DNA of 38,304 bases from positions 1 to 38,304 of the forward strand of contig DWZJ01000059.1 of assembly GCA_019118245.1 (NCBI GenBank), in the 5' to 3' direction. The position numbers and the translations under genes are program-made. The DNA is from Candidatus Oscillibacter excrementigallinarum. GTDB taxonomy: Bacteria; Bacillota; Clostridia; Oscillospirales; Oscillospiraceae. Shown here piece by piece: positions 16,822 to 38,304 of this stretch; position 1 is the stretch's first letter; each line of letters begins with the position of its first letter. A model generated the notes under the pieces. It had not been told where the DNA came from and did no database searches. It saw nothing but the letters and a program-made list of their open reading frames with translations.

Positions 16822-17205
16822 GCAAGGCCGGCGAATGCCGGCGGGGTATTGAAGGCGGTTATCAACCGCCCGGGGGATTCTGCTCCCGCAGGGGGCCGTT
16901 TCCACGGGGGATGCGCCCCCCATTCTCTTTTTGTTCTTGACAAAAAGAGAATGCGCCGCGCCCGGTGGAAGAGAAAAAATCGCTTAGGCGCGCTCCGGTG
17001 CAGTAGCCCTCCGCGCGCGACGGGGGTCGGCGTATCAGTGCAAGCGCCGATTTGAGCTGGCCTACGGGCACGCTATCATCTTCTGCGATTCCTGTAACTG
17101 CCGTCCCGTGGCGGATAGTGCAGTGGGCATCGGGGTAATCGTCGCATTGCCTCTGCGTCTCCTTTCGCTGCCGCTACCCTGGCAGCGGATGGCGGTCTCT
17201 GCAAC

Positions 17206-17284
17206 GGGCGGATGAAAGCATCCGCCCCTACGGAATGGTTAAGGCTTTCGGCATCCCCGTAGGGGCCGATGCCCTCATCGGCCC
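17206..17284. repeat. Head-to-head pair of REP-like palindromes (copy 1)
   Basis: GGGCGGATG (17206-17214) pairs perfectly with CATCCGCCC (17219-17227), and GGGCCGATG (17263-17271) with CATCGGCCC (17276-17284). Each has a 4-base loop and is bordered on its inner side by the same CCCCTACGG / CCGTAGGGG sequence in opposite orientation. The equivalent pair in copy 2 keeps the pairing with different bases. Confidence 0.75.
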
Positions 17285-17494
17285 GTCGGTACAGGTCCCC
17301 ACGACAACCGGTGGAGCGCGTAGCGAAGCGGAACGCGCGGAAAGAGGAACTGGTCAAATGCGTTCTTGCACCCCGATGATTGCTGCACCCGCGCCGCGGG
17401 GATCCGCCGTCAAGTCTGTACCGCACTCCGCCGCGCCCGGTGGAAGGTCATCGCAAACCCGCAGGCACCATCTCACGCCGACCCTCGTATTTAA

Positions 17495-17522
17495 GCAAAC
17501 TTGCACGAACGTGCAAGTTTGC
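17495..17522. repeat. 13-bp hairpin unique to repeat copy 1
   Basis: GCAAACTTGCACG (17495-17507) and CGTGCAAGTTTGC (17510-17522) are perfect inverted repeats separated by AA. It lies between the inverted CGCCGCGCCCGGTGGAA motifs, in the part of copy 1 that does not match copy 2, and may be a separate small insertion. Confidence 0.65.
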
Positions 17523-17670
17523 GCTCAACATTTTTTCTTTTCCACCGGGCGCGGCGCATGTTCTTTTTGATGTCTCAAAAAGAACATGGGGGGCGCATCT
17601 GCCCAGCCATCATCATGGCTGTTTCCCCCGTCCCCTGGGACGGCCCCCTCCCATATCCCCCTCATTCCCT

Positions 17671-17701
17671 TTTACAATTCGTAAATTACATTTTATATTA
17701 T
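17671..17701 (+). promoter_or_regulatory. dut promoter
   Basis: TTTACA (17671-17676) is 17 bases from TATATT (17694-17699); TATTAT (17696-17701) is an alternative -10. The stretch is strikingly AT-rich for this genome. TATTATACAAATCGT (17696-17710) matches the sequence at the mscL promoter (28056-28070) in 14 of 15 positions. Confidence 0.6.
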
Positions 17702-17730
17702 ACAAATCGTATTGATCTCTGGAGTTTGAC

Positions 17731-18162
17731 ATGGAAGAAATCAAGGTAAAATATTTCACAGACGACATCGACGAGCTGTGCTATGTGGCGGGCAAATCCG
17801 ACTGGATCGACCTCCACGCGGCGGAGACGGTCACCATGAAGGCCGGGGAGTTTCGGCTGATCCCCCTGGGGGTCGCCATCGCCCTGCCGGAGGGCTACGA
17901 GGCCCACATCGTCCCCCGCAGCTCCACGTTCAAGAATTACGGCATTTTGCAGACCAACTCCATGGGCGTGGTGGACTACACCTACCGGGGCGACGGGGAC
18001 CAGTGGCGGATGCCCGCCTACGCCACCCGGGACGTGACCATCGAGAAGAACGCCCGCATCTGCCAGTTCCGCATCGTGAAAAACCAGCCCCAGCTGACCT
18101 TCACCAAGGTGGAGCATCTGGACGGCCCCGACCGGGGCGGCTTCGGCTCCACGGGAAAGTGA
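17731..18162 (+). CDS. dut: dUTP diphosphatase
   Basis: A 143-residue trimeric dUTPase that hydrolyses dUTP to dUMP and pyrophosphate, keeping uracil out of DNA and supplying dUMP for thymidylate. Family motifs: SDWIDLHAAE (motif 1 region), VPRSSTFKNYGI (motif 2), NSMGVVDYTYRGD (motif 3, with the catalytic Asp), ARICQFRIVKN (motif 4) and RGGFGSTGK (motif 5, the flexible C-terminal arm). The first motif is less typical than the rest. The ATG at 17731 follows a modest CTGGAG site. It is the first gene after the repeat element and is followed 8 bases later by maf. Confidence 0.93.
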   Translation: MEEIKVKYFTDDIDELCYVAGKSDWIDLHAAETVTMKAGEFRLIPLGVAIALPEGYEAHIVPRSSTFKNYGILQTNSMGVVDYTYRGDGDQWRMPAYATRDVTIEKNARICQFRIVKNQPQLTFTKVEHLDGPDRGGFGSTGK

Positions 18163-18170
18163 GGGCGGAG

Positions 18171-18749
18171 ATGGCAAAGATCGTTTTGGCCTCCGGCTCC
18201 CCCCGGCGGCAGGAGCTGCTGCAGCGCATCGGCATCACGGACTTCGATGTCCGGGTGCCCCAGACGGAGGAATCCTATCCCGCCGGACTCTCTCCCCGGG
18301 AGACGGTGGAGTACATCTCCCGGGAGAAGTCCGACGCGGCTGCCGCCCTCTGCACGCCGGAGGAGATCGTCATCACCGCCGACACCATGGTGTTTCTGGA
18401 CGATGCGCGCCTGGGCAAGCCCGTCGACGAGACGGACGCGCTGCGGATGCTGACGGCCCTTCAGGGCCGCCGCCACACGGTGTGCACCAGCGTCACCGTC
18501 CGCCGGGGCAACGAGATCCTGACGGAGAGCGAGGCCACCGACGTCTACTTCCGCCCCGCCACAGAGTCGGAGCTCCGGGGGTACATCCGCACCGGCGAGC
18601 CCATGGACAAGGCCGGCGCCTACGGCGTCCAGGGCCTGGGGGCGCTGCTGGTGGAGCGGCTGGACGGCGACTTTTTCAACGTGATGGGACTGCCGGTCCT
18701 GCGGCTGAGCCGGATGCTGGAGCGGTTCGGCGTCCGCTTCTTCTGCTGA
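18171..18749 (+). CDS. maf: Maf-family nucleoside triphosphate pyrophosphatase
   Basis: A 192-residue Maf/YhdE-type enzyme that hydrolyses non-canonical or specific nucleoside triphosphates to monophosphates; some members affect septation. The N-terminal ASGSPRRQELL motif is diagnostic, followed by ITADTMVFLDDARLGKP (catalytic acidic cluster), LQGRRHTVCTSV and YIRTGEPMDKAGAYGVQG. The length is normal. ATG 18171 lies behind GGGCGGAG, 8 bases after the dut stop; the same frame is open much further upstream through dut but lacks family sequence there. It leads the mre genes, a common order in Bacillota (maf-mreBCD). Confidence 0.94.
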   Translation: MAKIVLASGSPRRQELLQRIGITDFDVRVPQTEESYPAGLSPRETVEYISREKSDAAAALCTPEEIVITADTMVFLDDARLGKPVDETDALRMLTALQGRRHTVCTSVTVRRGNEILTESEATDVYFRPATESELRGYIRTGEPMDKAGAYGVQGLGALLVERLDGDFFNVMGLPVLRLSRMLERFGVRFFC

Positions 18750-18771
18750 CCAACGATCAGGAGGGGTTCCT

Positions 18772-19611
18772 TTGAAGAGATTTTTCCGGGAGCACGGGCT
18801 TTGGGTGCTGTTTGCCACGGCGGTGGTCTCCGTGGCGCTGGCCCTCATGTCCTTTTTCTCCAACACCTCCGCTCCCCTGTCCAATCTGGCGGGGGTCATC
18901 GCCTCTCCCTTCCGCTCCGCCTATACAGCGGTGGCCAACTGGTTTGTGGACAAGCAGAACTACTACCAGGATATCACCGCCCTGGAGGAGGAGAATGCCG
19001 CCCTGAAGCGGGAGAACGCCCAGCTCCAGGCCCAGCTCCGCCAGGCACAGACGGACAGTGAGGAGAACGCCCGCCTGCGGGAGCTGCTGAACCTGCGGCC
19101 CCAGAACTATGAGCTGGAGCTGGAGTCCGCCTCCGTCACGGAGCGCACGGTCACCAACTGGACCTCCTCCCTGACGCTGAACGTGGGCACGGATCACGGG
19201 GTGGAGGCCGGCGACTGCGTCATTGACGAGACCTATGCCCTGGTGGGCGTGGTCAGCGAGGTGGGCCTCAACTGGTGCACGGTCCTCACCCTGGTGGACA
19301 CGGACACCTCTATCGGCGCCCAGGTGTTCCGCACCAAGGACCTGGGGCTGGCGGTGGGCGACTTCACACTGATGCGGGAGGACCGCCTGCGGCTGGACTA
19401 TCTCCCGGCGGACTGCCAGCTGCTGGGGGGCGACCTGGTGGTCACCTCCGGCCTGGGGGGCTACTATCCCTCCGGCCTCTCCATCGGCACGGTGGAAGAG
19501 GTGCAGCTGAGCGACTCCGGTGCCGCCTCCTATGCGGTCCTGGCGCCGTCGGTGGACTTTGGCAGCCTGGTGGAGGTCTTTGTCATCAAGTCCTTTGACA
19601 TCCAGACCTGA
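18772..19611 (+). CDS. mreC: Rod shape-determining protein MreC
   Basis: A 279-residue single-pass protein that links the elongasome to the wall. One membrane segment lies near 9-29 (WVLFATAVVSVALALM), a coiled coil near 65-110 (LEEENAALKRENAQLQAQL), and the beta-rich extracytoplasmic domain follows (TVTNWTSSLTLNVGTDHGV, then LVDTDTSIGAQVF and VTSGLGGYYPSGLSIG), as in other MreC proteins. The start is TTG at 18772, 6 bases after AGGAGGGG; no ATG is better placed. mreB is not next to it here. It is followed by mreD and a class B PBP, the usual order. Confidence 0.93.
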   Translation: MKRFFREHGLWVLFATAVVSVALALMSFFSNTSAPLSNLAGVIASPFRSAYTAVANWFVDKQNYYQDITALEEENAALKRENAQLQAQLRQAQTDSEENARLRELLNLRPQNYELELESASVTERTVTNWTSSLTLNVGTDHGVEAGDCVIDETYALVGVVSEVGLNWCTVLTLVDTDTSIGAQVFRTKDLGLAVGDFTLMREDRLRLDYLPADCQLLGGDLVVTSGLGGYYPSGLSIGTVEEVQLSDSGAASYAVLAPSVDFGSLVEVFVIKSFDIQT

Positions 19612-19655
19612 GCGGATGCGCTGCTCGGAATTTCTCCAAAGAGGAGGTGCCGGTC

Positions 19656-20168
19656 TTGCTGGCCCGCAATGAGACCATTTTCAAATGGGCCCTGTACGCC
19701 GGGGCCACCGCAGTGTTTTTCCTGCTCCAGGGGGCCGTGTTCCAGCGGATCACCCTCTGGGGCGTCATCCCCTTTGTGTTTCCCATCCTGGCGGCTGTCC
19801 TGGGAATGTACGAAGGCCCGCTGCCGGGCTCCATTTACGGCCTGGTGCTGGGGGTGCTGTGTGATCTGCTGCTGCCGGCCTCCATCCCCTGCTTTTACAC
19901 CCTGGTCTTTCCGGCGGTGGGGCTGTGCGCGGGCCTGATCTCCCAGAGCCTGCTGCCGGCGGGCTTTCTCTGCGCCGCCGTCACCTCCGTGCTGGCCTTT
20001 TTCTTTACGGGCCTCTTTCACTGTGTGCTCCTCTGGGCCCGGGGCAAAACGGCCTGGGCCGCGGGGGCGCAGCTGTTTTTGCAGGAGGTCTGCGTTTCCA
20101 TTCTGCTGATCATCCCGGTGGTGCTGCTGTTTTCCGCCGTGTTCCGCCGGACCCATCTGGACGACTGA
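19656..20168 (+). CDS. mreD: Rod shape-determining protein MreD
   Basis: A 170-residue, very hydrophobic protein with about five membrane segments, for example WALYAGATAVFFLLQGAVF, TLWGVIPFVFPILAAVLGMY, PGSIYGLVLGVLCDLLLP, CFYTLVFPAVGLCAGLI and a C-terminal ILLIIPVVLLFSAVF. The GxxxGxxxGxxxDLL-type motif is typical of MreD. TTG 19656 is preferred because AAAGAGGAGG ends 8 bases upstream; a GTG at 19647 overlaps that site. MreD is a core elongasome component beside MreC and PBP2. Assignment rests on topology, length and its position between mreC and the PBP2 gene. Confidence 0.86.
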   Translation: MLARNETIFKWALYAGATAVFFLLQGAVFQRITLWGVIPFVFPILAAVLGMYEGPLPGSIYGLVLGVLCDLLLPASIPCFYTLVFPAVGLCAGLISQSLLPAGFLCAAVTSVLAFFFTGLFHCVLLWARGKTAWAAGAQLFLQEVCVSILLIIPVVLLFSAVFRRTHLDD

Positions 20169-20180
20169 GGGGAGGAATTT

Positions 20181-22394
20181 ATGGACCACAAGGATGCCCG
20201 CCATCTCCGCCTGTATGTTTTGGCGGCGCTGTTCTTCGCGGTGATGGCGGTCTATCTGGGCGTACTGTTCAACACCCAGGTGAACCACTATGACGAATAC
20301 TACGCCAGCTCCATCCGCACCATCGCCCGGTCAGAGGCGGTGGAGGCCGCCCGTGGCAACATCACCGACCGCAACGGGAAGCTGATGGTGTCCAGCCGCT
20401 CTTCCTATAATCTGACCTTTGACGCCTCTCTTCTGGACGAGGGCGAGGACGCCAACGAGGCCATCCTGCGGCTGCTGGAGCTGTGTCAGGAGCGGGGCAT
20501 CAACTGGGTGGACGCCCTGCCCATCACCCGCTCCACCCCCTTTGCCTATACCCTGGACTCCCTGGACAGCACATCCAGCCGCCGCTTCCTCACCTACCTG
20601 AAGGATCTGGACGGCGCGGCGGAGGCCCTGGGGGCCTATCTGCTGGAGCACCCCGCTCTGCTGGAGACCACGGACGAGGACGGCGATGTGGAAAATCCCG
20701 CCGATGACATTCTGGCGGACGAGGAGCTGACGGATGCCCAAAAGGCCAGCCGGCTTTTGGACGAGCTGACCGCCTCCCAACTGACGGCCGCCCTGCTGGA
20801 GGGGGCCGGCCTCTCCCCCACCCGGCTGATCGCCCTGATGCGGGAGGACTTGAACGTGCCCGCCTCCTTCTCCGTGGCGGAAGCCCGGCTGGTGCTGGGC
20901 ATCCAGTATGAGATCCGCAGCCGCAACCTTGTGAGCACGGACGCCTATGTGCTGGCGGAGGACATCGACACGGAGCTGATCTCCCTGCTGAACGACGGGG
21001 ACTACGCCGGGGCCAAGATCACACCGTCCTCCGTCCGGGAGTACGAGACGACCTATGCGGCGCATATCCTGGGGTATCTGGGCGACATCACCGCCGAGGA
21101 CGACTACTGGAATACCCTGTATTACGAAGGCTATGCCATGAATGACAAAATCGGCCGCAGCGGCGTGGAAGCCGCCTTCGAGGAGTACCTCCGGGGCACC
21201 GACGGCGTCCGGGTGGTGTCCACCAACGAGGAGGGTAAGATCACCGGTGAATATTACTCCACCGAGCCGGTCCCCGGAAACACGGTGGAGCTGACCATCG
21301 ACCTGGATCTGCAGCAGGCCACTGAGGATGCCCTGGCCGCCACCATCACCCAGATGAACGCGGAGGATGGGGATGAGAGCCGGGGCGGCGCCGCGGTGGT
21401 GCTGGATGTGGACACTCGGGAGGTCCTGGCCATCGCCTCCTACCCCACCTACGATCTGGCCACGTTCCGGCAGTCCGCCAGCGTTTACGCCGCGCTGGAG
21501 TCGGATCCCAGCCGCCCCTTTAACAACCGGGCCACGCAGGGCCTTTACGTCCCCGGCTCCACCATCAAGCCCCTGACCGCCGTGGCGGCGCTGGAGGAGG
21601 AGATCATCACCGCCACAGAGCGTCTCCGCTCCCCCTCCCACTGGTCTTATCCCAACGATCCCACTGGCAGCGGCATCAATTGTGCCGGGGGCAACCACGG
21701 CCTGATCAATGTGACCCAGGCCATTACCCGCTCCTGCAACTACTTCTTCGCGGAGATGGGCTACCGCCTGGGGATGGACACCTACCTGGAGTATCTCCAT
21801 GCCTTCGGGCTGGGTGATTCCACCGGCATCGAGATCGGCGATGCCGCCGGCATCCTGCCGGAGAACCCGGAGGGCCAGGACCGTGCCCCCTGGGCGGCCT
21901 TCGGCCAGGGCAACCAGGCCTATACCCCCCTGCAGATCGCCAACTATATCGCCACCCTGGTCTCCGGCGGGGAGCTGCTGCAGCCCCATCTGCTCAAGGC
22001 CATCAAGTCCTATGACAACGCGGAGGTCCTGACGGTGGGCGAGGCCGACACCCTTGGTACCGTCTCCATCTCCGACTCCACCCTGGAGGCGGTGAAGGAA
22101 GGAATGCTGGGCTACACCCAGCCCGGCGGCTCTGTCTACAACGCCTTCCGCAGCTGCGTGGTCACCGCCGGCGCCAAGACCGGTACCTCTCAGCTGGGCG
22201 GCGATCAGACGGATAACGGCGTCTTTGTGTGCTTCGCCCCCTATGATGACCCGGAGATCGCCGTGGCCATCGTCATCGAGCACGCCACCTGGGGTTCCAA
22301 TCTGGCCTCCACCGGCGTGGAGATCCTCAATTCCTATTTCGCCGCCGACGACAGCGGCAATGCCGTCACCGGCGAAAACCAACTGCTTCCCTAA
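20181..22394 (+). CDS. mrdA: Penicillin-binding protein 2 (class B transpeptidase)
   Basis: A 737-residue PBP that cross-links peptidoglycan during elongation. One N-terminal membrane anchor (about 11-32) precedes the PBP dimerisation domain (beginning near ARGNITDRNGKLM, residues 58-70). The domain has a large helical, acidic insertion (about 150-240), so the protein is somewhat longer than many homologues. Transpeptidase motifs: STIK (S460 nucleophile), SCN (518-520) and KTGT (666-669). ATG 20181 follows GGGGAGGAATTT, 12 bases after mreD. The mreC-mreD-mrdA order places it in the rod complex rather than in sporulation or septation. Confidence 0.93.
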   Translation: MDHKDARHLRLYVLAALFFAVMAVYLGVLFNTQVNHYDEYYASSIRTIARSEAVEAARGNITDRNGKLMVSSRSSYNLTFDASLLDEGEDANEAILRLLELCQERGINWVDALPITRSTPFAYTLDSLDSTSSRRFLTYLKDLDGAAEALGAYLLEHPALLETTDEDGDVENPADDILADEELTDAQKASRLLDELTASQLTAALLEGAGLSPTRLIALMREDLNVPASFSVAEARLVLGIQYEIRSRNLVSTDAYVLAEDIDTELISLLNDGDYAGAKITPSSVREYETTYAAHILGYLGDITAEDDYWNTLYYEGYAMNDKIGRSGVEAAFEEYLRGTDGVRVVSTNEEGKITGEYYSTEPVPGNTVELTIDLDLQQATEDALAATITQMNAEDGDESRGGAAVVLDVDTREVLAIASYPTYDLATFRQSASVYAALESDPSRPFNNRATQGLYVPGSTIKPLTAVAALEEEIITATERLRSPSHWSYPNDPTGSGINCAGGNHGLINVTQAITRSCNYFFAEMGYRLGMDTYLEYLHAFGLGDSTGIEIGDAAGILPENPEGQDRAPWAAFGQGNQAYTPLQIANYIATLVSGGELLQPHLLKAIKSYDNAEVLTVGEADTLGTVSISDSTLEAVKEGMLGYTQPGGSVYNAFRSCVVTAGAKTGTSQLGGDQTDNGVFVCFAPYDDPEIAVAIVIEHATWGSNLASTGVEILNSYFAADDSGNAVTGENQLLP

Positions 22395-22408
22395 GGAGAT
22401 CCGCCCCC

Positions 22409-24277
22409 ATGAGTGAACCCTTTGTTTTTGACCCCCGCTGTGACCTCTGCAAGGAGCCCTTCGGCGCCGTACCCTGCGGCACGGCGGTCACCCTTCGCTG
22501 CCGCCCTCTGGCCTCCGAGGGATTTACCCACTGTGCTCTGGTGGTGTTCCGCGAGTTTGCGGACGTCCGGCAGGAGCAGGAGCTGACGCTGGAGGGCCCT
22601 GCCGGCGAGCGGGTCTGCTTTTCCGGCACGCTGACCGCGCCGGAGGAGGCGGATCTGCTGTGGTACCACTTCCGCTTCTGGCGGGAGGACGGCTCTGGCT
22701 GTGTGCTGGACCGGACCGGCTACCGCAGCGACGGACAGGCGGACGCCTGGCAGCTGACAGTCTATTGGGAAAACCACACGCCCGGTTGGTTCGGTACCGG
22801 CGTGACTTACCAAATTTTCCCAGATCGATTCTGCCGCCTGGCCCTTCCGGATCCCTCCGGTCTGGTGGGGCAGCGCTGGGTCCACCGGGACTGGGACGAC
22901 ACACCGGTGTGGCAGCCGGACCCGGACGGTGAGATCCGCAACCGGGACTTCTTCGGCGGCTCCCTGGCGGGGATCACGTCGAAGCTGGACGATTTGAAGG
23001 CCCTGGGCGTCGCCACCCTCTATCTCTGCCCCATTTTCGAGTCCGCCTCCAACCACCGCTACAACACAGCGGATTACACCCGCATTGACCCCATGCTGGG
23101 CATGGAGGAGGATTTCCGCACCCTCTGCCAGGAGGCCCACCGGCGGGGGATGCGGGTGATCCTGGACGGGGTGTTCAACCACACCGGCTCCCAGAGCGTC
23201 TACTTCAACGCCGACGGCTGGTATCCCGCTCTGGGCGCCGCCCAGAGTCAGGATTCCCCCTGGTACAGCTGGTACCGGTTCCATCACTGGCCGGATTCCT
23301 ATGACTCCTGGTGGGGCATCCACACCCTGCCGGCGGTGGAGGAGTCCGATCCCTCCTATGTGGATTTCATCATCGACGGGCAGGACGCCATCATCCGCCG
23401 GTGGCTGCGGGCCGGAGCGGACGGCTGGCGGCTGGACGTGGCGGACGAGCTGCCGGACTGGTTTTTGGAGAAGATCCGCTCCGCCATGGAGGAGACGAAG
23501 CCCGACAGCATCCTCATCGGCGAGGTGTGGGAGGACGGCTCCAACAAAATCGCCTACTCCCAGCGGCGGCGGTATCTGCTGGGCAGCGAGACCCACGGCC
23601 TGATGAACTACCCCTTCCGCACGGCGCTGCTGGCCTATCTTCAGGGCGGGGACGCAAACGATTTCCGGGAGTCCATGGAGACCCTGCGGGAGAACTACCC
23701 CCCGGCCGCCTTCTATTCGGCCATGAACTTCCTGGGCACCCACGACACGCCCCGCATCCTGACGCTTCTCGGTGCCCGCGAGATACCCGCGGATAAGGCC
23801 GAGCGGGCAGCCTACCGCCTCCTTCCCTATGAGCGGGCGGAAGCGCTGGCCAGGCTGCGGCTGGCGTCCCTGGTGCTCTTTACCTTTCCCGGCTCCCCCA
23901 TGATCTATTACGGGGACGAGGCCGGGATGGAGGGCTTCGAGGACCCCCTGAATCGGGGCACTTATCCCTGGGGCCGGGAAAATACCGGCCTGGTGACGTG
24001 GTTTTCCCGACTGGGCGCTCTGCGAAACGCCTACCCGGCTCTCCAGTCCGGGACGCTCTCCTGGCTCTATACCGCCGGTCCCCTGCTGATCTTTGCCCGG
24101 GAGGTGGATGGTGAGCGGCTGGTAACAGCGGTGAACGCCTCCGGCGATCCTCAGACGGTAACGCTGTCATGGGAGCTTCCCTCTCCAACGGATCTGCTCT
24201 CCGGCGAGGCGCTTTCCGTCTCCGACGGTGTGCTGCGGCTGGAACTGCCGCCCTGGGGCTGCCGTCTTTTGCGATAA
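22409..24277 (+). CDS. Glycoside hydrolase family 13 enzyme (alpha-amylase/neopullulanase type)
   Basis: A 622-residue intracellular enzyme (no signal peptide) predicted to hydrolyse alpha-1,4 and possibly alpha-1,6 glucans or cyclodextrins. An N-terminal beta domain (about 1-120) precedes the catalytic barrel. The GH13 signatures are DGVFNH (region I), WRLDVADE with nucleophile D343 (region II), IGEVWED with acid/base E372 (region III) and LGTHDTPR with H445/D446 (region IV). A C-terminal beta domain closes the protein. YQIFPDRF and SWWGIHTLP are typical of neopullulanase and cyclomaltodextrinase relatives. The AAGGAG site overlaps the mrdA stop codon, so the two genes are co-transcribed although unrelated in function. 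Confidence 0.9.
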   Translation: MSEPFVFDPRCDLCKEPFGAVPCGTAVTLRCRPLASEGFTHCALVVFREFADVRQEQELTLEGPAGERVCFSGTLTAPEEADLLWYHFRFWREDGSGCVLDRTGYRSDGQADAWQLTVYWENHTPGWFGTGVTYQIFPDRFCRLALPDPSGLVGQRWVHRDWDDTPVWQPDPDGEIRNRDFFGGSLAGITSKLDDLKALGVATLYLCPIFESASNHRYNTADYTRIDPMLGMEEDFRTLCQEAHRRGMRVILDGVFNHTGSQSVYFNADGWYPALGAAQSQDSPWYSWYRFHHWPDSYDSWWGIHTLPAVEESDPSYVDFIIDGQDAIIRRWLRAGADGWRLDVADELPDWFLEKIRSAMEETKPDSILIGEVWEDGSNKIAYSQRRRYLLGSETHGLMNYPFRTALLAYLQGGDANDFRESMETLRENYPPAAFYSAMNFLGTHDTPRILTLLGAREIPADKAERAAYRLLPYERAEALARLRLASLVLFTFPGSPMIYYGDEAGMEGFEDPLNRGTYPWGRENTGLVTWFSRLGALRNAYPALQSGTLSWLYTAGPLLIFAREVDGERLVTAVNASGDPQTVTLSWELPSPTDLLSGEALSVSDGVLRLELPPWGCRLLR

Positions 24278-24278
24278 C

Positions 24279-24321
24279 AGTCCTGGATGTTTCACGTGAA
24301 ACATCCAGGACTTCTCTTTTT
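24279..24321 (+). terminator. Terminator formed by a 34-base perfect palindrome with a parS core
   Basis: Starting two bases after the GH13 stop, 24279-24312 is a perfect palindrome without spacer (AGTCCTGGATGTTTCAC followed by its complement), followed by TCTCTTTTT. This has the form of a Rho-independent terminator for the mrdA-GH13 unit. Its central 16 bases are an exact parS site, so one sequence appears to serve both as terminator and centromere. Confidence 0.8.
24288..24303. promoter_or_regulatory. parS site 1
   Basis: TGTTTCACGTGAAACA, an exact match to the conserved bacterial parS palindrome bound by ParB. It lies about 170 bases upstream of parA, at the centre of the terminator palindrome. 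Confidence 0.93.
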
Positions 24322-24323
24322 GC

Positions 24324-24339
24324 TGTTTCACGTGAAACA
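24324..24339. promoter_or_regulatory. parS site 2
   Basis: A second exact TGTTTCACGTGAAACA, 20 bases after site 1 and upstream of the parA promoter. Two sites this close would allow dense ParB loading beside the partition genes and could influence parA transcription. Confidence 0.93.
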
Positions 24340-30624: not shown

Positions 30625-30630
30625 CACACC

Positions 30631-30870
30631 GGTACCGCGCGGATGCCGCAGCAGTACCCCAATCGCCGGCCCCACAGAGAGGGGCGCACCGCTGAGAGCG
30701 GCCCGGCCGGCCTGGGAGAAGGACAGCGGCGGAGCGGGGGCGGAGACGCCCACGGCACCCTCCCCGTGCCAGAGGAGGCAAAAGGAGGCCCCTTGGGCCT
30801 TGAATTTGGGTGGCACCACGAAGCGTGATCGCTCTCGTCCCAAAGCCAGGGGACGGGAGCGTTTATTTTT
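30631..30870 (+). promoter_or_regulatory. T-box riboswitch, probably aspartate-specific
   Basis: A T-box leader ahead of hisS. Stem I begins with GCAGTACCCC (AGTA at 30653-30656) and has an AGAGAG apical element. The specifier region reads GAGAAG-GAC-AGCGGC with GAC (Asp) at 30722-30724. The T-box sequence is GGGTGGCACCACG (30808-30820); its variable C fits the G73 discriminator of tRNA-Asp and not C73 of tRNA-His. The terminator pairs CGCTCTCGTCCC (30830-30841) with GGGACGGGAGCG (30850-30861), followed by TTTATTTTT. Both readings point to tRNA-Asp, which suits control of a hisS-aspS unit. The specifier call is by eye. Confidence 0.85.
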
Positions 30871-30907
30871 CCACCCCCACACGAAAATCCCAAGAGAAGG
30901 AGCAATT

Positions 30908-32266: not shown

Positions 32267-32320
32267 TGAAAACAAATAGAAATCAAACCTTCAAAATATA
32301 CAGTTAGGAGTTGATTTCTT

Positions 32321-33598
32321 ATGACTAAGCGCCGTTTCTCCGCCCTGTTTCTGACGCTGGCCCTGCTCTTCTGCTCCCTGCCCGCTGCGGCGGCGGAGGG
32401 GGACGGCTGGCTGGTGCCCAAGGTCCGGGAGGCCCCCGCCTTCACGGACATGGCCGGTGTCTGGTGTGAGGACGCCGTCCAAACCGTCTGCCAGACCGGA
32501 CTGATGCAGGGCCGGTCCGACGGCAGCTTCGGCCCCTCCGGCGAGCTGACAGGGGCCCACATCGTCACCATCTGCGCCCGGCTGTACGTCCTGCTCACCG
32601 GCGGCGACGGCGTGCTGCCGGAGCCGGCAGAGGGTCAGGAATGGTATGACCCGGCCTACGCCTCCCTGTCCCAGGCCCTGGACCGCATGGGCGCTACAGG
32701 CAGCACCCCCACCGCCCTTCACGCCCAAACCCTGGACCTGCTGGAGGATATTCCCCCCGCCGACCCTGTCCATCGGCAGACCTTTGTCTCCCTGCTGGTT
32801 GAGACGCTCCAGACGGCAGACGTCACCCTGCCCTCCATCAACCAGATCACAGTGGTGCCGGACTTCAGGAGCCCCGGCGTGCTGTCCCTTTACAACGCCG
32901 GTATCCTCACCGGCTCTGACCAATACGGTTCCTTTGGAGGCGGAGAACTGCTGAATCGCGGCCAGGCAGCAGCTATTTTAGCCCGCCTTGTGGATCCCGC
33001 CCAGCGGGTGACCTTCACCCCCGCCCCCTTTGACCTGTGCGCCGACGTGCTGGGGCTGGAGGCAGACTCCCAGGCCATCTCCATCGAATATGACGGCATC
33101 GCTGCAGAGCTGTCGGCGGATATTGTGGCCCCGGCTCTCTGTGAACATCTGGAGAGGCAGTACAACCGCATGCTGGTGGATGGCCCCAATGCCAATGACC
33201 TGGACCTGGTGCTCCGGGACACCATCGCCTCCCTGGAAGAGGACGTGGCCATCTCCCGCCTGGCGGCCCAGCTGGGCATCACCGTGACGGATGCGGAGCT
33301 GAAGGGAACTTTCGGTGCCGTCATCCCCGGCTACCTGGGCATGACTGCTGTGGCCCAGCAGTGGGAGAACACCTGCTTCCTGCTGTACAACAAGCTGCAG
33401 GATGCTTACGAGGAAGAATACGGCATAGAAGTGGTGGCCCCCTCCCCCGGTGCCCCCTCCATAGGTGAGGAAACTCTATACGGCGACCTGATGGACATGA
33501 TGGAGCAGATGACAGCCCTGACCGCCCCGGAAATTCAGGACCTAGACCTGGACGCCGCCCAGACCCGGCTGGTAAATTCTTCGGCCTATGGCCTGTGA
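32321..33598 (+). CDS. Secreted SLH-domain protein between hisS and aspS
   Basis: A 425-residue exported protein. A signal peptide (MTKRR, hydrophobic 8-20, cleavage near AAAA-E at 25) is followed by S-layer homology-like repeats: FTDMAGVWCEDAVQTVCQTG with GRSDGSFGP, and VPDFRSPGVLSLYNAGILTG with NRGQAAAILARLV. These modules usually tether proteins to wall polymers. The C-terminal half (about 235-425) is acidic and helical with no recognised motif; a segment resembling the N-terminal helices of SurA/PpiC-type foldases was considered but is not convincing. AGGAG precedes ATG 32321. Short, unusually AT-rich gaps border the gene on both sides, so it may carry its own promoter. Confidence 0.78.
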   Translation: MTKRRFSALFLTLALLFCSLPAAAAEGDGWLVPKVREAPAFTDMAGVWCEDAVQTVCQTGLMQGRSDGSFGPSGELTGAHIVTICARLYVLLTGGDGVLPEPAEGQEWYDPAYASLSQALDRMGATGSTPTALHAQTLDLLEDIPPADPVHRQTFVSLLVETLQTADVTLPSINQITVVPDFRSPGVLSLYNAGILTGSDQYGSFGGGELLNRGQAAAILARLVDPAQRVTFTPAPFDLCADVLGLEADSQAISIEYDGIAAELSADIVAPALCEHLERQYNRMLVDGPNANDLDLVLRDTIASLEEDVAISRLAAQLGITVTDAELKGTFGAVIPGYLGMTAVAQQWENTCFLLYNKLQDAYEEEYGIEVVAPSPGAPSIGEETLYGDLMDMMEQMTALTAPEIQDLDLDAAQTRLVNSSAYGL

Positions 33599-33661
33599 GC
33601 ATTTACAAAAACTACAATTAGCAATTTTTGAATAAATTTATACGAAAAGGAATGTAACAGT

Positions 33662-35437
33662 ATGACACAGAACCGTACCCATACCTGCGGAGAGCTGCGG
33701 CTCTCCGACGCCGGCAAGGCCGTGAAGATCTGCGGCTGGCTGGAAAATCTCCGGGAGGTGGGCAGTGAGCTGGCCTTCGCCGTGGTCCGGGACTTCTACG
33801 GCACCACCCAGGTGGTGGCGGAGACCGCCGACATGGTGGCCCTGCTGAAGTCCATCAACAAGGAGTCCACCATCTCCGTGGAGGGCACTGTCCGGGAGCG
33901 GGACAGCAAGAACCCCAAACTGCCCACCGGCGACATCGAGGTGGTGCCCAGCAGGATCGAGGTGCTGGGCCGCTGCCAGCACAACGAGCTGCCCTTTCAG
34001 ATCAACCGCAGCCGGGAGGCCGATGAGGCCACCCGCCTGAAATACCGCTATCTGGACCTGCGGAACCCGGCGGTGAAGAACAACATCATCCTCCGGTGCA
34101 ACGTGGTGGCCGCCCTGCGGCAGGCCATGACGGAGCACGGCTTCCTGGAGATCACCACCCCCATCCTGACCGCCTCCTCCCCGGAGGGCGCCCGGGACTA
34201 CCTGGTGCCCGCCCGGAACCACCCCGGCAAGTTCTACGCCCTGCCCCAGGCCCCCCAGCAGTTCAAGCAGCTGCTGATGACCTCCGGCTTTGACCGGTAC
34301 TTCCAGATCGCCCCCTGCTTCCGGGACGAGGACGCCCGGGCGGACCGCTCCCCCGGCGAGTTCTATCAGCTGGACATGGAGATGGCCTTTGCCTCCCAGG
34401 ACGACGTGTTCGCCGTGCTGGAGGACGTGCTGCCTCCCATCTTCGCCAAGTACGGCAAGTATGACCGGGCCAGCGCCGCGCCCTTTGTGCGCATCCCCTA
34501 CACCGAGGCCATGGAGAAGTACGGCTCCGACAAGCCGGACCTGCGCATCGACCTGACGGTGCAGGACGTGACCTCTGTGCTGGCGGGCTGCGGCTTCGGC
34601 CCGTTCGAGGGCAACACCGTCAAGGCCGTGGTGGTGTCCGACTTCCACGAGACGAGAAAGTTCATCGACAAGACCCTGGCGGACGTGGAGGTGGTCTCCG
34701 GCTCCAAGCCCTACTGGTTCCGCCTGGACGAGAGCGGCGAGGTGGTGGGCGGCATCGCCAAGTTCGTCGCCCCCATCAAGGAGCAGGTGGTCTCCGCCCT
34801 GAATCTGAAGGCCAATGACTTCGTGGCCCTGTCCGCCGGGAAGCTGGGCCAGGCCCAGAAGACCGCCGGCGTGCTGGTGAAGACCCTGGGCGCCGCCGTC
34901 CCCGGCCATATGGACAAGGAGCAGTACGCCTTCTGCTGGATCGTGGACTTCCCCATGTACGAGATCGGCGAGGAGTCCGGCGAGCTGGAGTTCTGCCACA
35001 ATCCCTTCTCCATGCCCTCCGGCGGCCTGGAGGTGCTGCTGAAGGCGGAGCGGGGCGAGATCGATCCCCTTAGCATCACCGCCGACCAGTACGACCTGGT
35101 GTGCAACGGCGTGGAGCTCTCCTCCGGCGCGGTGCGGAACCACGACCCGGAGATCATGATCAAGGCCTTTGAGATGGTCCGCCTGGGCGAAGAGGACGTG
35201 AAGGCCAAGTTCCCGGCCATGTACAACGCCTTCACCTACGGTGCGCCGCCTCACGCGGGCATCGCCCCCGGCGTGGACCGCATGGTGATGCTGCTGGCCG
35301 GCGAGGACTCCATCCGGGAGATCATCCCCTTCCCCATGAACAAGAACGCCCAGGACGTGATGATGGACGCCCCCGGCGCCGTCACGCAGAAGCAGCTGGA
35401 CGAGCTGCACATCGCCATCGTCAAGTCCCAGGACTGA
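33662..35437 (+). CDS. aspS: Aspartyl-tRNA synthetase
   Basis: A 591-residue class II synthetase of the bacterial type. The N-terminal OB-fold that reads the anticodon lies near 10-105 (VKICGWLENLREVGSELAFA). The catalytic domain has FLEITTPILTASSPEGARDY, motif 2 FRDEDARADRSPGEFYQLD, and motif 3 GAPPHAGIAPGVDRMVMLL; the bacterial insertion (GAD domain, about 300-420) is present. It charges tRNA-Asp; some enzymes also charge tRNA-Asn when AsnRS is missing, which cannot be decided here. AAAAGGAATG precedes ATG 33662. It probably lies under the Asp-type T-box two genes upstream, and a strong terminator follows 20 bases after its stop. Confidence 0.96.
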   Translation: MTQNRTHTCGELRLSDAGKAVKICGWLENLREVGSELAFAVVRDFYGTTQVVAETADMVALLKSINKESTISVEGTVRERDSKNPKLPTGDIEVVPSRIEVLGRCQHNELPFQINRSREADEATRLKYRYLDLRNPAVKNNIILRCNVVAALRQAMTEHGFLEITTPILTASSPEGARDYLVPARNHPGKFYALPQAPQQFKQLLMTSGFDRYFQIAPCFRDEDARADRSPGEFYQLDMEMAFASQDDVFAVLEDVLPPIFAKYGKYDRASAAPFVRIPYTEAMEKYGSDKPDLRIDLTVQDVTSVLAGCGFGPFEGNTVKAVVVSDFHETRKFIDKTLADVEVVSGSKPYWFRLDESGEVVGGIAKFVAPIKEQVVSALNLKANDFVALSAGKLGQAQKTAGVLVKTLGAAVPGHMDKEQYAFCWIVDFPMYEIGEESGELEFCHNPFSMPSGGLEVLLKAERGEIDPLSITADQYDLVCNGVELSSGAVRNHDPEIMIKAFEMVRLGEEDVKAKFPAMYNAFTYGAPPHAGIAPGVDRMVMLLAGEDSIREIIPFPMNKNAQDVMMDAPGAVTQKQLDELHIAIVKSQD

Positions 35438-35456
35438 GCCATTCTCGGCAACAAGA

Positions 35457-35493
35457 AAAACAGGCGGACCGCATAATGCGGTCCGCCTGTTTT
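35457..35493. terminator. Bidirectional terminator after aspS
   Basis: CAGGCGGACCGCA (35461-35473) pairs perfectly with TGCGGTCCGCCTG (35477-35489), flanked by AAAA on the left and TTTT on the right, so it works as a terminator on both strands. It serves aspS and the convergent secreted-protein gene. Confidence 0.9.
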
Positions 35494-35503
35494 GTACTTT
35501 ATG

Positions 35504-36214
35504 TCAGGATATTCCTCCCACAGGCCAGAGCTTGTCAAACCGCTGGGCCTGAGTATTGCACCAGAAATGGTCCTCTGCGGTCCCGGAGACATAGTAGGCC
35601 AGCGGGCCGGCAAAATGGCCGCTCTCGTGGATATCCACCTCTAGAGACGGACAATAGCCAACGGCACTGCGGTCCCGGAGACGGACGCTGAGCGCCGTCT
35701 CCCCATAATACCCCAGCCAGGGGATCACCACCCGGCAGGTGCCGTTTTGGAAGATCAGCAGCTCCTGCATCGTGCTGTCACACCAGATGCCGTCAAACGC
35801 CTCCACTTCCATGGGCCAGTCCGAGGGCTCTTCTTTCCAGGGCGTGGTCTCTGTCTCAAAAAGCCGGGTGAAGAAGGGGTGCAGGGACCGAACCGCCTCC
35901 CGGTAGGTTTCCTCCCCCAATTCCGGCGCTTCTCCCGCCGCCCGCAGGCGGTCCGCTGTGTCCAGCACGGCGGCAAAGGCAGCGGCAGCCTCCGCCGCAG
36001 TCTCCGTCCGCGCCTCCAGTAGGTCCTCCACCGCCTGGGACGGTGCGCTTGCGCCGGAGGCTGCCCAGTCCAGCAGCGTCCGTGCCGCCGTTTCCGGCGA
36101 TTCCTCCAGGACCTGCACTGCCGCCGTCTCCCAGGTGATCTCCGGGTCCGTTCTCTGGTCCTGGGGCACCCCCAGCAGGGAAATCACAGCCAGAAGCATC
36201 GCCGCCATCCGCAT
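35504..36214 (-). CDS. Putative secreted protein of unknown function
   Basis: A 236-residue protein with a short hydrophobic N-terminus (MAAMLLAVISLLGV) that could be a signal peptide. An Ala/Glu-rich helical region (about 28-100) is followed by a beta-rich C-terminal half with many aromatic residues (for example DWPMEVEAFDGIWCDST, then CRVVIPWLGYYGETALSVRL and VDIHESGHFAGPLAYYV). HESGH looks like part of a zinc site, but HExxH is absent, so a protease call is not supported. GTGAGGA lies upstream of ATG 36214; an internal ATG three codons later is possible. It is monocistronic, convergent with aspS and divergent from the GH3 gene. Confidence 0.65.
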   Translation of the reverse strand: MRMAAMLLAVISLLGVPQDQRTDPEITWETAAVQVLEESPETAARTLLDWAASGASAPSQAVEDLLEARTETAAEAAAAFAAVLDTADRLRAAGEAPELGEETYREAVRSLHPFFTRLFETETTPWKEEPSDWPMEVEAFDGIWCDSTMQELLIFQNGTCRVVIPWLGYYGETALSVRLRDRSAVGYCPSLEVDIHESGHFAGPLAYYVSGTAEDHFWCNTQAQRFDKLWPVGGIS

Positions 36215-36288
36215 GTTTCCTCACGTCCCTTCTGTTTTTCAACATATCATGCAGATGATTCGGATTCCACCACAAACCGGTAACAGTC

Positions 36289-36317
36289 TTTTCTTTCCCG
36301 CAAAAATATGATACACT
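36289..36317 (+). promoter_or_regulatory. Possible promoter of the GH3 lipoprotein gene
   Basis: TTTTCT (36289-36294) and TACACT (36312-36317) with a 17-base spacer. The -35 is weak. It sits in the divergent gap between the secreted-protein gene and the GH3 gene. Confidence 0.4.
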
Positions 36318-36354
36318 GCTGGTATCTATCCCTCCCTTTTGGAAAGGAGTCCTT

Positions 36355-37539
36355 ATGAAACGCTTGCTCGCGGCGGCGATGACCGCCCTTACCCTGCTGA
36401 TGCTGGCCGCTTGCGGCAGTTCCCCGGCAGAAGAAGCCCCCCAGGAACCCGCCGCTTCTCAGGTCCAGGAGGAGCCGGAGACGCCCCCGGAGCCCACACC
36501 GGAAGAGCTGGCCGCCCAGCAGATTGAGGATCTGCTTTCCTCCCTGACCCTGGAGGAGAAAGTGGGACAGCTGTTTTTCGTCCAGGTTCCGGATGCGGAT
36601 GCCGCTGCCGATGTGAGCACCCACCACCTGGGCGGCTACATTCTCTTTGGCCGGGACACAGCAGACAAAACCGCCGATGCCCTGATCCAGACCATCCAAA
36701 GCTACCAGGACGCCGCGGCGGCAGACACCGGCATCCCTCTGCTGATCGGTGTGGACGAGGAGGGCGGCACGGTGGTGCGGGTCAGCTCAAATCCCCATCT
36801 CCGGGCCTCCAAGTTCCGCTCCCCTCAGCGGGCCCACGCCGACGGCGGCATGGAAGCCGTCTTGGCGGACACCCGGGAGAAGGACATTCTCCTCTCTGCC
36901 CTGGGCTTCAATGTAAATCTGGCCCCAGTGGCGGATGTGTCCACGGACCCAGGTGATTTTATCTATGACCGCACCCTCGGCCAGGACGCTGCAGCCACGG
37001 CGGACTATGTGTCCCAGGTGGTCACCCAGATGTCCGGAGACGGCATGGGCAGTGTCCTGAAGCATTTTCCGGGCTATGGCAATAATATAGACACCCACAC
37101 CGGCATTGCCGTGGATGAACGGCCTCTGGAGGACTTCACAAACGCGGACTTTCTCCCCTTCCAGGCGGGCACAGAGGCCGGCGGCGGCAGGACCGCTGTG
37201 CTGGTCTCTCACAACATCATGGCCGCAGTGGACGACACCCTTCCCGCCTCCCTGTCCCCGGCAGTCCATGACCTGCTGCGGGAGCAGCTGGGCTTTGACG
37301 GCGTGGTGATGACTGATGACCTGGCCATGGAGGCGGTGGCCGCCTATTCCGCCGACGGCGCCGTGGCAGTCATGGCTCTGGAGGCCGGAAATGACCTCAT
37401 CATCACCACCGACTACCGCACCCAGATCCCCAAGGTGATCGAGGCGGTGGAGGGCGGTACCCTGTCGGAGGACACCATCGACACCGCCTGCCGACGGGTG
37501 CTGACCTGGAAGCAGGCGCTGGGGCTGATAGGAAGATGA
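36355..37539 (+). CDS. Glycoside hydrolase family 3 lipoprotein (beta-N-acetylglucosaminidase type)
   Basis: A 394-residue lipoprotein. The lipobox LAAC puts the lipidated Cys at residue 20, followed by a Glu/Pro-rich spacer (about 21-50), so it is anchored outside the cytoplasmic membrane. The catalytic barrel shows IGVDEEGGTVVRV, KHFPGYGNNIDTH with the NagZ-type Asp-His dyad, and VVMTDDLAMEAV with the nucleophile Asp (D321 or D322). The KHFPG(H/Y)G and DxH motifs identify N-acetylglucosaminidases that trim peptidoglycan fragments. The length fits a single-domain GH3 enzyme. GGAAAGGAG precedes ATG 36355. The second composite repeat begins 23 bases after its stop. Confidence 0.9.
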   Translation: MKRLLAAAMTALTLLMLAACGSSPAEEAPQEPAASQVQEEPETPPEPTPEELAAQQIEDLLSSLTLEEKVGQLFFVQVPDADAAADVSTHHLGGYILFGRDTADKTADALIQTIQSYQDAAAADTGIPLLIGVDEEGGTVVRVSSNPHLRASKFRSPQRAHADGGMEAVLADTREKDILLSALGFNVNLAPVADVSTDPGDFIYDRTLGQDAAATADYVSQVVTQMSGDGMGSVLKHFPGYGNNIDTHTGIAVDERPLEDFTNADFLPFQAGTEAGGGRTAVLVSHNIMAAVDDTLPASLSPAVHDLLREQLGFDGVVMTDDLAMEAVAAYSADGAVAVMALEAGNDLIITTDYRTQIPKVIEAVEGGTLSEDTIDTACRRVLTWKQALGLIGR

Positions 37540-37622
37540 CCCTCTCTCCGGAGATGGATTTAGGCCGCCGAACGGCGGCCACGGGGGTGCTGGCTCCCGC
37601 CAGGGGGGCTTGTCCAGCGGGG

Positions 37623-37830
37623 ATGCACCCCCCATTTTCTTTTCGGTCTTGCCCGAAAAGAAAACGGGCCGTGCACGGTCCAAAAGAAAAGGGCGCTAAG
37701 CGCGCTCCGGTGCAGTGGCCCTCCGCGCGCGACGAGGGTCGGCGTATCGGTGCAAGCGCCGATTTTGCCAGGCCTTCGGGCACGCTATCATCTTCTGCGA
37801 GGTCGATACTGCCGTCCCGTGGCGGATGGT
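37623..37830 (+). repeat. Left 208-base arm of the long inverted repeat
   Basis: Nearly identical, in reverse complement, to 38097-38304. It includes the ATGCACCCCCCATT start, the 12-bp hairpin, the GGGCCGTGCACGGTCC palindrome (37666-37681) and a long conserved stretch ending TCCCGTGGCGGATGGT. Most differences fall in or just after the hairpin. Confidence 0.88.
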
Positions 37831-37913
37831 GCGGAGGGTGTCGGGGTGGTCGTCGCATTGATCTGCTTCTCTTTTCGCTGCCGCTGGCTGTCCCGCGCGG
37901 GATCTGGTGCAAC

Positions 37914-37993
37914 GGGCCGATGAGGGCATCGGCCCCTACGGGGATACCGAAAGCCATCGCCTCCTTTGTAGGGGCGGACGCCCTCGTCCGCCC
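37914..37993. repeat. Head-to-head pair of REP-like palindromes (copy 2)
   Basis: GGGCCGATG (37914-37922) pairs with CATCGGCCC (37927-37935), and GGGCGGACG (37972-37980) with CGTCCGCCC (37985-37993), each with a 4-base loop. Compared with copy 1, the first hairpin swaps a G-C pair for C-G, and the second changes two pairs, all with pairing kept. Confidence 0.78.
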
Positions 37994-38096
37994 GCTGGTA
38001 CAAGGTCCCCACGTCCGCCCGGGCAGCGCGTAGCGAAGCGGAACGCGCGGAAAGAGAAACTAGTCAAATGCGTCCTTGCACCCCGACGAGGTCGGT

Positions 38097-38304
38097 ACCA
38101 TCCGCCACGGGACGGCAGTATCGACCTCGCAGAAGATGATAGCGTGCCCGAAGGCCTGGCAAAATCGGCGCTTGCACCGATACGCCGACCCCCGTCGCGC
38201 GGAGGGCCACTGCACCGGAGCGCGTTAAAGCGTTTTTTCTCTTTGGACCGTGCACGGCCCGTTTCTCTTTTGGCAAGACCAAAAGAGAAATGGGGGGTGC
38301 ATTG
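38097..38304 (-). repeat. Right 208-base arm of the long inverted repeat
   Basis: The inverted partner of 37623-37830. Its hairpin TTTCTCTTTTGG/CCAAAAGAGAAA (38262-38290) differs in sequence from the left-arm hairpin but is fully paired, with the same TCTTG loop on the opposite strand. The arm ends at the window edge and may continue. Confidence 0.88.

Follow-up and report, generated by a model that had tools for sequence, protein, structure and literature searches.

In the window analyzed here, the 38,304-nucleotide contig DWZJ01000059.1 (C51), taken entire from the 108-contig, 2.41-Mb draft assembly GCA_019118245.1 of Candidatus Oscillibacter excrementigallinarum (95.8% complete; genome G000), two non-coding blocks of repeated DNA lie downstream of genes. 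Block 1 separates two plus-strand genes, for a U32 peptidase and a dUTPase, and block 2 comes after a GH3-family gene. Alignment of positions 16873-17379 with 37583-38089 gave 80% identity across 513 aligned columns (E 1e-120), which excludes a chance likeness and makes the two blocks homologous; a preliminary description of this DNA had listed their shared parts, and these were found in the same order in both. Overlooked at that first reading was the inverted-repeat structure of each block, whose two ends face inward. We consider it an even chance that both blocks belong to a family of non-autonomous mobile DNA elements whose folded, possibly triplex-forming ends are recognized by an enzyme acting in trans. 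The parts of both blocks, with position, strand and basis, are these.

16854-16870, plus strand: block 1, outer hairpin of the left (A-type) end, GGCGG-ttatcaa-CCGCC (sequence; equivalent position in other copies).
16880-16891, plus strand: block 1, second outer hairpin of the A-type end, CTGCTCCCGCAG (sequence; other copies).
16910-16981, plus strand: block 1, left end core with boundary 4-mer TGCG and C-run (alignment, pair counts, model match of 91.7 bits, mirror and 4-mer tests).
16922-16934, 16935-16939 and 16940-16952, plus strand: pyrimidine arm, loop TCTTG and purine arm of the left end of block 1 (alignment).
About 16969-16979, plus strand: mirror tract AAGAGAAAAAA of the same end, following CCG-CGCC-CGG (mirror and 4-mer tests).
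16985-17175, plus strand: block 1, left arm (A type), with GGGTCGGCGTATC..., GGGCACGCTATCATCTTCTGCGA and CTGCCGTCCCGTGGCGGAT, closing in CTCCTTTCGCTGCCGCT (module map; alignment with block 2).
17204-17233, minus strand: block 1, repetitive extragenic palindrome (REP) of GTAG type, a TAGGGGC palindrome nested in the center, with GCCCCTAC at 17224 (inverted repeat).
17257-17286, plus strand: block 1, second GTAG-type REP, in opposite orientation, with GTAGGGGC at 17259 (inverted repeat).
17318-17379, plus strand: block 1, inner end of the right half, a GCGTAGCGAAGCGGAACGCG hairpin and then CTGGTCAAATGCGTTCTTGCACCCCGA (module map).
17380-17527, plus strand: block 1, right arm (X type), with hairpin GCAAACTTGCACG-aa-CGTGCAAGTTTGC at 17495-17522 (inverted repeat; a like arm seen by eye in L039 and L059).
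17528-17599, minus strand: block 1, right end core, inverted relative to the left, with arm TCAAAAAGAA and boundary 4-mer TGCG (alignment; model match of 81.0 bits).
17604-17642, plus strand: block 1, B-type outer hairpins CAGCCATCATCATGGCTG (17604-17621) and CGTCCCCTGGGACG (17629-17642) (sequence; other copies).
37563-37603, plus strand: block 2, A-type outer hairpins GGCCGCCGAACGGCGGCC (37563-37580) and CTGGCTCCCGCCAG (37590-37603) (sequence; other copies).
37622-37693, plus strand: block 2, left end core, with boundary TGCA, stem TTTTCTTTTCGG and mirror tract AAAAGAAAAG (alignment, pair counts; 92.9 bits).
37695-37885, plus strand: block 2, left A arm plus inner tract TTCTCTTTTCGCTGCCGCT (alignment, module map).
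37912-37994, plus strand: block 2, two GTAG-type REPs in opposite orientation, GCCCCTAC at 37932 and GTAGGGGC at 37968 (alignment, module map).
38028-38089, plus strand: block 2, GCGTAGCGAAGCGGAACGCG hairpin and the tract after it (module map).
38079-38224, minus strand: block 2, right A arm, the inverted left arm (38079-38201 against 37726-37848, one pair of 123 nt with 94% complementarity), possibly a chimera (inverted repeat).
38232-38303, minus strand: block 2, right end core, with stem TTTCTCTTTTGG and mirror tract AAAGAGAAAA, where the contig terminates (model match of 89.9 bits).

The family is defined by its end, which spans 72 positions. An alignment of 40 ends, 37 of them distinct, contains a hairpin of 20 pairs in which 91.8% of 734 cells are paired, compared with 84.3% in shuffles, a level that none of 500 shuffles reached; both sides have changed in 10 pairs, and only one cell of the 734 carries a one-sided change. 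Four of five measures of this hairpin lay above all 500 shuffles, and the fifth, the number of further pair types, lay below the shuffled value (11 vs 14.9), as would be expected where linked types are few. Ahead of the C-run stand four bases (TGCA, TGCG, TCCA, TCAG, TCAA, TGAA and others) that pair with the NNNN of a CCG-NNNN-CGG motif. Over 135 parsed ends from 22 genomes this boundary pairing averages 3.46 of 4, against a shuffled mean of 2.60 and a maximum of 2.81 in 5000; taken by its 16 distinct classes, the 4-mer scores 3.13, against 1.85 when shuffled and a maximum of 2.63.

The purine tract 3' of CCG-NNNN-CGG repeats the purine arm of the hairpin in mirror image rather than as its reverse complement. 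Among 107 distinct arm-tail combinations with 25 distinct arms, the mirror match averages 10.16 nt for a mean arm of 10.43 nt, the direct match averages 8.42 nt, and shuffling the tails among ends lowers the mirror match to 7.52 nt (maximum 8.03 of 300); the mirror is better than the direct repeat in 101 combinations, equal in 5 and worse in 1. Counted by ends, 77 of the 84 mapped could be parsed, with the mirror better in 75, a tie in 2 and the full arm mirrored in 70, the seven unparsed ends being mostly interrupted by another repeat. A further 32 ends come from 14 loci of eight more genomes, six of other genera (G240, G090, G239, G154, G257, G146) and two of the same genus (G083, G040); here 28 ends were parsed (25 better, 2 tied, 1 worse) and four were not. 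Twenty-two of these 32 belong to the other genera, and 20 of them were parsed, with the mirror better in 19, tied in one and complete in 15. The letters themselves differ there, as in L163 (arm AGAAAGAGAAAA, tract AAAAGAGAAAGA), L159 (arm GGAGAAGAAGAGGA, tract AGGAGAAGAAGAGG) and L158 (arm AAGAAAAGAAAGAA, tract AAGAAAGAAAAGAA). Full-length mirroring occurs in 18 of 23 distinct asymmetric arms.

The mirror rule operates within an end. Parsed arms at the two ends are unequal in 39 of 41 elements (in some just in trimmed outer bases), and a tract fits its own arm better (0.98) than its partner's (0.70; own better in 67 cases, worse in 2, tied in 9), so the mirror tract is no by-product of long-range pairing between the two ends. 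An equal arm class at both ends was found in 4 of 33 elements vs 8.7 expected (P 0.04), a deficit too marginal to sustain selection against identical ends.

A purine arm held in a helix together with its mirror is the requirement for an intramolecular triplex, and H-DNA classically requires a purine arm and its mirror with a short spacer between them. The mirror tract and hairpin of this family predict that both ends fold, as DNA or as RNA, into an intramolecular triple helix. Leaving the element, the outgoing strand presents a pyrimidine tract, CCG-NNNN-CGG, the pyrimidine arm, the loop and the purine arm in that order, and its first tract could serve as a Hoogsteen strand running parallel to the purine arm, forming mostly U-A-U and some C-G-C triples; the other strand would form a purine-motif triplex. 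The outgoing strand would thereby resemble MALAT1 RNA, and the trait that marks triplexes of that kind and of the element for nuclear expression (ENE), a third pyrimidine tract parallel to a Watson-Crick-paired purine arm, is present here as a sequence rule only. The MALAT1 triplex is described, in the sections consulted of its source, as nine U-A-U triples and one C-G-C triple (PMC11411715). Folded as DNA, block 1 reached -243.8 kcal/mol vs -159.0 in 20 shuffles (z -18), an energy indicating only that the inverted halves could pair, as the folding program models no triplexes. Tentatively, and at somewhat less than even confidence, we suggest mobile elements with both ends encoded as intramolecular triple helices, composed of a hairpin, a mirror third strand and a boundary-defining 4-base pairing, whose structural code is conserved while the letters change across genera. 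Such an end might be read as three-stranded DNA by a transposition machinery, with the 4-base pairing choosing the cleavage point, or might cap every outgoing transcript as a bacterial counterpart of an ENE.

How the ends are assembled into elements was determined by mapping modules and ends in 33 stretches of the own genome and 12 of G085 (same genus, single contig). The common plan comprises outer hairpins, end core, arm (A or X), inner tract and center, followed by a second half that is inverted. Thirty-four of 62 map entries, from the own genome and five others, are two-ended, with ends 534-1876 bp apart (13 in the own genome), and 12 further inward-facing pairs, 364-571 bp apart, were found in 10 of the 14 additional loci. 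Inverted terminal repeats bounding a short non-coding unit, a trait of bacterial miniature inverted-repeat transposable elements (MITEs), are therefore seen in the mapped two-ended copies; the single-ended entries reflect a contig cut, interruption by another repeat, divergence beyond the search pattern or truly solo ends. The center holds GTAG-type REPs or, in three own-genome copies (C26 13316-14718, C69 3114-4491 and C82 19366-21241), small genes, and Pfam, applied to six of the cargo proteins, assigned one to HTH_3 and one to RHH_3, with four lacking a match above cut-off. The GC hairpin, listed at first among the shared parts, is one of several interchangeable outer hairpins. By eye, a hairpin-rich insert of the CCCGCAAGGGG...CGGATGCGG type recurs within element palindromes, as if targeting hairpins: in the ends of L040, L053, L111, L126 and L127, and in the inner hairpin of L039 and L099.

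Within this map, block 2 alone carries A arms on both sides, so that a chimera is possible there, whether of assembly or by recombination. Contigs C60 and C94 each begin with the same 125 nt that close the window (38180-38304); block 2 is therefore cut at an assembly break, and its right flank lies beyond the contig end. The identical ends of these three contigs illustrate how the repeat family breaks the assembly, and many contigs of the draft stop in or next to a copy. The high copy number proposed in the preliminary description was confirmed, as block 2 used as a query retrieved 137 BLAST pieces from its own 2.4-Mb genome; merged by us with the end-model matches, these amount to about 48 places, a figure that counts in contig-end fragments and weak ends.

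Among relatives the distribution is patchy. The end model matches 63 of 86 congeneric genomes (E up to 1e-6, best 57 candidates scored per genome), with 0 to at least 57 ends per genome within the one genus, and, at E up to 1e-8, 19 of 300 genomes sampled from the bacterial family, which represent 12 of 106 genera and include five of the window's genus; at most 16 candidates per genome were scored in the latter search, which makes its per-genome counts lower bounds. A body query of 391 bases of DNA (best 8 candidates scored per genome) reaches 27 of the 86 congeneric genomes, with long matches in only 7 (G000, G002, G003, G005, G049, G065 and G085). To judge from these matches, the ends are probably older than the middles. 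A 23-mer was also found in one contig of the named genome set, that of Candidatus Oscillibacter pullicola (Oscillospiraceae).

Comparison of flanks revealed sites common to different species, 16 of which were grouped by hand, and occupied and empty versions of orthologous sites, a further trait of bacterial MITEs, were encountered both at the block 1 site and at a site designated K. The block 1 site is empty in G003, with 77 bp between the flanking matches, and occupied in differing states in G002, G049 and G065; by eye, G005 has an additional gene and element-like remains there, and G085 an additional gene with no recognizable element. Site K lies between genes that we take, from their sequence, to be a beta-CASP-like gene and an RlmD-like methyltransferase gene. 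It is empty in G001, G006, G007, G040 and G082, holds a divergent DUF6809/HTH_3 gene pair (Pfam, in G000; L043 3422-3969) with no element in G042, and holds both the pair and the element in G000, G004, G005 and G085; among the matches, its flanks do not stand together on one contig in G002 and G003. A tree of the flanking genes clusters G000, G005 and G085 and places G004 elsewhere (branches with 63-80% support), and in G004 the other end type of the element faces the helix-turn-helix (HTH) gene, so that two separate arrivals at site K are possible. The earlier suggestion that the repeats are mobile or functionally retained finds some support on both counts: the empty orthologous sites are signs of past mobility, and occupation of a site in at least two species is a sign of long retention.

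The middles of the elements are exchanged and inverted. At 4 of 13 sites (B, C, F and G; 17 comparisons in all) the interior fits its ortholog better when inverted, one element end having been set by hand in several entries that were unparsed. One end of site C keeps its direction (100 vs 63) and the other fits the swapped partner better (65 vs 75); likewise at site G (92 vs 74, and 62 vs 73), while at site F the resolved end travels with the inverted interior (78 direct, 100 swapped) and the ends of site B could hardly be resolved. The left flank of site G shows 92-100% identity in every 50-nt window except the first, yet its inverted interior is 78% identical where aligned, which does not favor a simple flip-flop inversion of one segment. 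Site H has flanks that are mostly 92-100% identical and an interior that is dissimilar in either direction, and at several sites the interior is nearer to a copy elsewhere than to its ortholog, though the flanks are about 85-98% identical. Other elements are nearly identical between species, as at site L (L048 3945-4680 vs L116 2954-3689; 99% over 736 nt, flanks 92% and 94%), which indicates either recent exchange or strong constraint, at site B between G085 and G005 (99%) and at site N (96%). An interior is thus retained or else replaced, in one orientation or the other, the pattern that exchange between copies would produce. In G003, L107 unites flanks that lie apart in G000 and G085, the result either of a rearrangement between copies or of a draft artifact.

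Small HTH genes stand beside copies more often than chance placement would put them there. In G085 an HTH_3 gene lies within 200 nt of 6 of 14 element places (three of them single ends), compared with 0.33 by random placement of the 88 matches used out of 93, and none of 20,000 draws reached 6. The count for G000 is 8 of 48 places vs 1.37 expected (P 9e-5; 61 of 66 matches used), one of the eight being inside a cargo copy and another a 350-residue frame pointing away. The stop codon of an HTH-like open reading frame (ORF), picked by eye among 88 ORFs, precedes the end core by 58-66 nt in 14 loci and by 12-158 nt in six more. Between species, identity is only about 56-82% over the beginning of the HTH gene and the DNA preceding it at sites B, D and K, against mostly 84-100% in the genes beyond. 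Because the HTH pair stands alone in G042, it is more likely that the element was attracted to, or kept beside, HTH genes than that it was made with them.

On the explanation that we favor, a copy would consist of a replaceable middle between two ends that face inward. Each end would fold on itself as a pyrimidine-purine hairpin, its outer four bases paired with CCG-NNNN-CGG and its mirror purine tract lying in the groove as a third strand, and the folded end, as single-stranded or supercoiled DNA, would be recognized by an enzyme supplied in trans. The nested REPs, small genes and outer hairpins would be passengers, and copies, once inserted, would stay in the intergenic DNA, where recombination among them would exchange or invert their middles.

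Several results weigh against this explanation. No convincing target-site duplication was seen by eye at the empty sites or at the minimal copies of other genera, and no junction could be fixed because empty sites are too diverged or outer hairpins too variable. Sites are shared between species, so movement is infrequent now, and in G240 the ends of all four loci (L151-L154) are solo, with no inward-facing partner; in three of these loci two same-strand ends lie 3.5-4.3 kb apart. The preliminary description had noted no transposase, and this holds for the copies whose ORFs were read: none of the ORFs of the three cargo copies or of a G084 interval between two same-strand ends, which contains ordinary genes only, encodes a transposase or recombinase, whole genomes having been searched for Y1_Tnp only. 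An autonomous, transposase-bearing copy was likewise missing from the three wide own-genome pairs and the G084 interval, a check that was not exhaustive, as ORFs of G240 and G083 were uninspected and the ends of low-copy genomes were read as sequence only. As for the end itself, the hairpin pairs at columns 3-55, 12-47 and 14-45 fail in 16, 16 and 23 of 37 ends, three parsed ends have only 0 or 1 of 4 boundary pairs (both at 0 are maybe mis-parsed), arms in G012, G040 and two of G154 are mirrored just partly, and in G240 the mirror tract is missing from one end (L153 6327). Because purine tracts have low sequence complexity, composition contributes to any match (7.5 nt when shuffled). Nor can the ends count as independent trials, since they are related by descent and a few are duplicated through contig overlaps. 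The parser presupposes the CCG-type motif, which the boundary and mirror scores therefore do not test.

Among the alternatives, the one that survives best, although we hold it to be somewhat unlikely, is that the elements are kept for transcription, their folded ends serving as protectors of RNA 3' ends or as bidirectional terminators of the flanking genes through a pyrimidine-motif RNA triple helix at the exit end, with spread being incidental or old. The tract order of the outgoing strand would suit U-A-U triples, end cores follow HTH-like stop codons at the short distance given above, the far end of the G000 copy at site K sits just ahead of the ribosome-binding site of the next gene, many sites are occupied in more than one species, and the site L element is more conserved than its flanks. 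The stem, however, has almost no G-U intermediates, as its single one-sided cell in 734 indicates, which fits DNA better than RNA; moreover, the motif stands at both ends in opposite orientations, and the interior and outer hairpins are freely swapped.

Less probable, and in our judgment improbable, is that homologous recombination alone acts on the repeats, as members of an old and now dead family that convert and invert one another and serve no function today. The inverted interiors at four of the 13 orthologous sites, the interiors that resemble non-orthologous copies between well-matched flanks and the many draft contigs that stop in or beside a copy would all agree with it. By contrast, the stem, the boundary pairing and the mirror tract have been preserved through sequence change and across genera, which argues for selection on the end, at least until recently.

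The least probable of these explanations is mobilization by a REP-associated tyrosine transposase (RAYT; Y1/HUH), the family being an outsized REP-type element. The TAGGGGC palindromes, which had been taken for a family-specific part, are GTAG-type REPs: a short GTAG-tagged palindrome (GTAGGGGC) is repeated in both blocks, such REPs lie inside many other copies, and the genome has one RAYT-like gene (L084 1279-1773, on G000 contig C100; Y1_Tnp 22.7 bits vs a Pfam cut-off of 23). Two GTAG-type REPs also interrupt the reading frame of this gene, which stays open. Judging from the GTAG tag, the palindromes are the probable substrates of the RAYT, and the opposed paired hairpins of the family recall the REP dimers and terminal inverted repeat (TIR) families of tyrosine transposases as sections of PMC3733652 describe them. 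Distribution and linkage nevertheless disfavor RAYT-driven mobility: five genomes at least 92% complete with 10 to at least 57 scored ends (G002, G034, G083, G040 and G004) have no Y1_Tnp match, G042 shows the reverse with five Y1_Tnp matches and no end, and the end model found nothing convincing near seven RAYT loci (best 11.3 bits, E 0.086).

Known RNA families and phage or plasmid elements were rejected for want of matches: Rfam 15 gave no match at gathering score across the window and, at E up to 1, no credible match in four loci; a tRNA search of the window found none; phage and plasmid sequences contain no match to block 1; and a 21-mer from the block body is absent from viral contigs. 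The window also contains, at 2492-2590, a copy of another dispersed repeat of about 100 nt that matches up to 15 other places of the fetched set; by eye, a sequence resembling it interrupts the element-end hairpin in G085 (L086) and G049 (L102).

Should the mirror rule reflect a real triple helix, these ends would be natural, abundant and evolutionarily varied bacterial intramolecular triplexes whose rules are defined by covariation, and the ends of a mobile element could then be recognized through a three-stranded fold. Three further traits give the family a bearing on genome plasticity in these bacteria: it disrupts draft assemblies, adjoins small HTH regulators above chance and apparently swaps and inverts segments between sites.

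This is a real repeat family without an Rfam match and of a known broad kind, whose end architecture was matched to no known family. Titles and abstract openings of the open-licence literature yielded no paper describing it, which is weak evidence of novelty. What is new is an end that combines a covarying hairpin, a boundary 4-base pairing with CCG-NNNN-CGG and a mirror purine tract, the mirror rule being the surprising, testable part. In homopurine mirror repeats that form H-DNA, a purine arm and its mirror are present as they are here; in this family, unlike H-DNA, the mirror repeat is joined to an inverted repeat (the hairpin) and to a separate boundary pairing, and is conserved through sequence change. 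Bacterial MITEs and small repeats such as Correia, ERIC and the pneumococcal repeat unit, as portrayed in the portions of PMC2229807 drawn on, are similarly non-coding, intergenic and of high copy number, end in inverted repeats and are considered non-autonomous, whereas the ends of the present family are long and multi-hairpin with a mirror tract, its interior is modular, no target-site duplication was found, and neither the ORFs read nor a genome-wide search for Y1_Tnp revealed a parental insertion sequence. REPs, REP dimers and the TIR families of RAYT and TIRYT share the inverted palindrome pairs, the intergenic location and the complementary stem changes (PMC3733652, in part), a source whose main text, by word search, mentions none of Firmicutes, Clostridi or Oscillibacter. 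REPs of RAYT systems measure 20-40 bp according to the same source; the ends described here span about 72 positions, the elements that bear them measure 0.36-1.9 kb, the end is not defined by a GTAG or CGTC tag, and the distribution of RAYT does not match that of this family. Closest to the predicted fold are RNA triple helices of the ENE/MALAT1 type, including the ENE of the plant retrotransposon Evade, in which, as far as the consulted parts of PMC11411715 and PMC12501189 go, a pyrimidine Hoogsteen tract likewise joins a pyrimidine-purine helix, as predicted here with mostly U-A-U and some C-G-C triples. Those ENEs are linked, in the same sections (PMC11411715, PMC12501189), to long terminal repeat (LTR) retrotransposons, mostly of plants and fungi, whereas the predicted triplex of the present family is bacterial, stands at both element ends, unites its three tracts within one end with no poly(A) tail, and lets its letters vary under the mirror rule.

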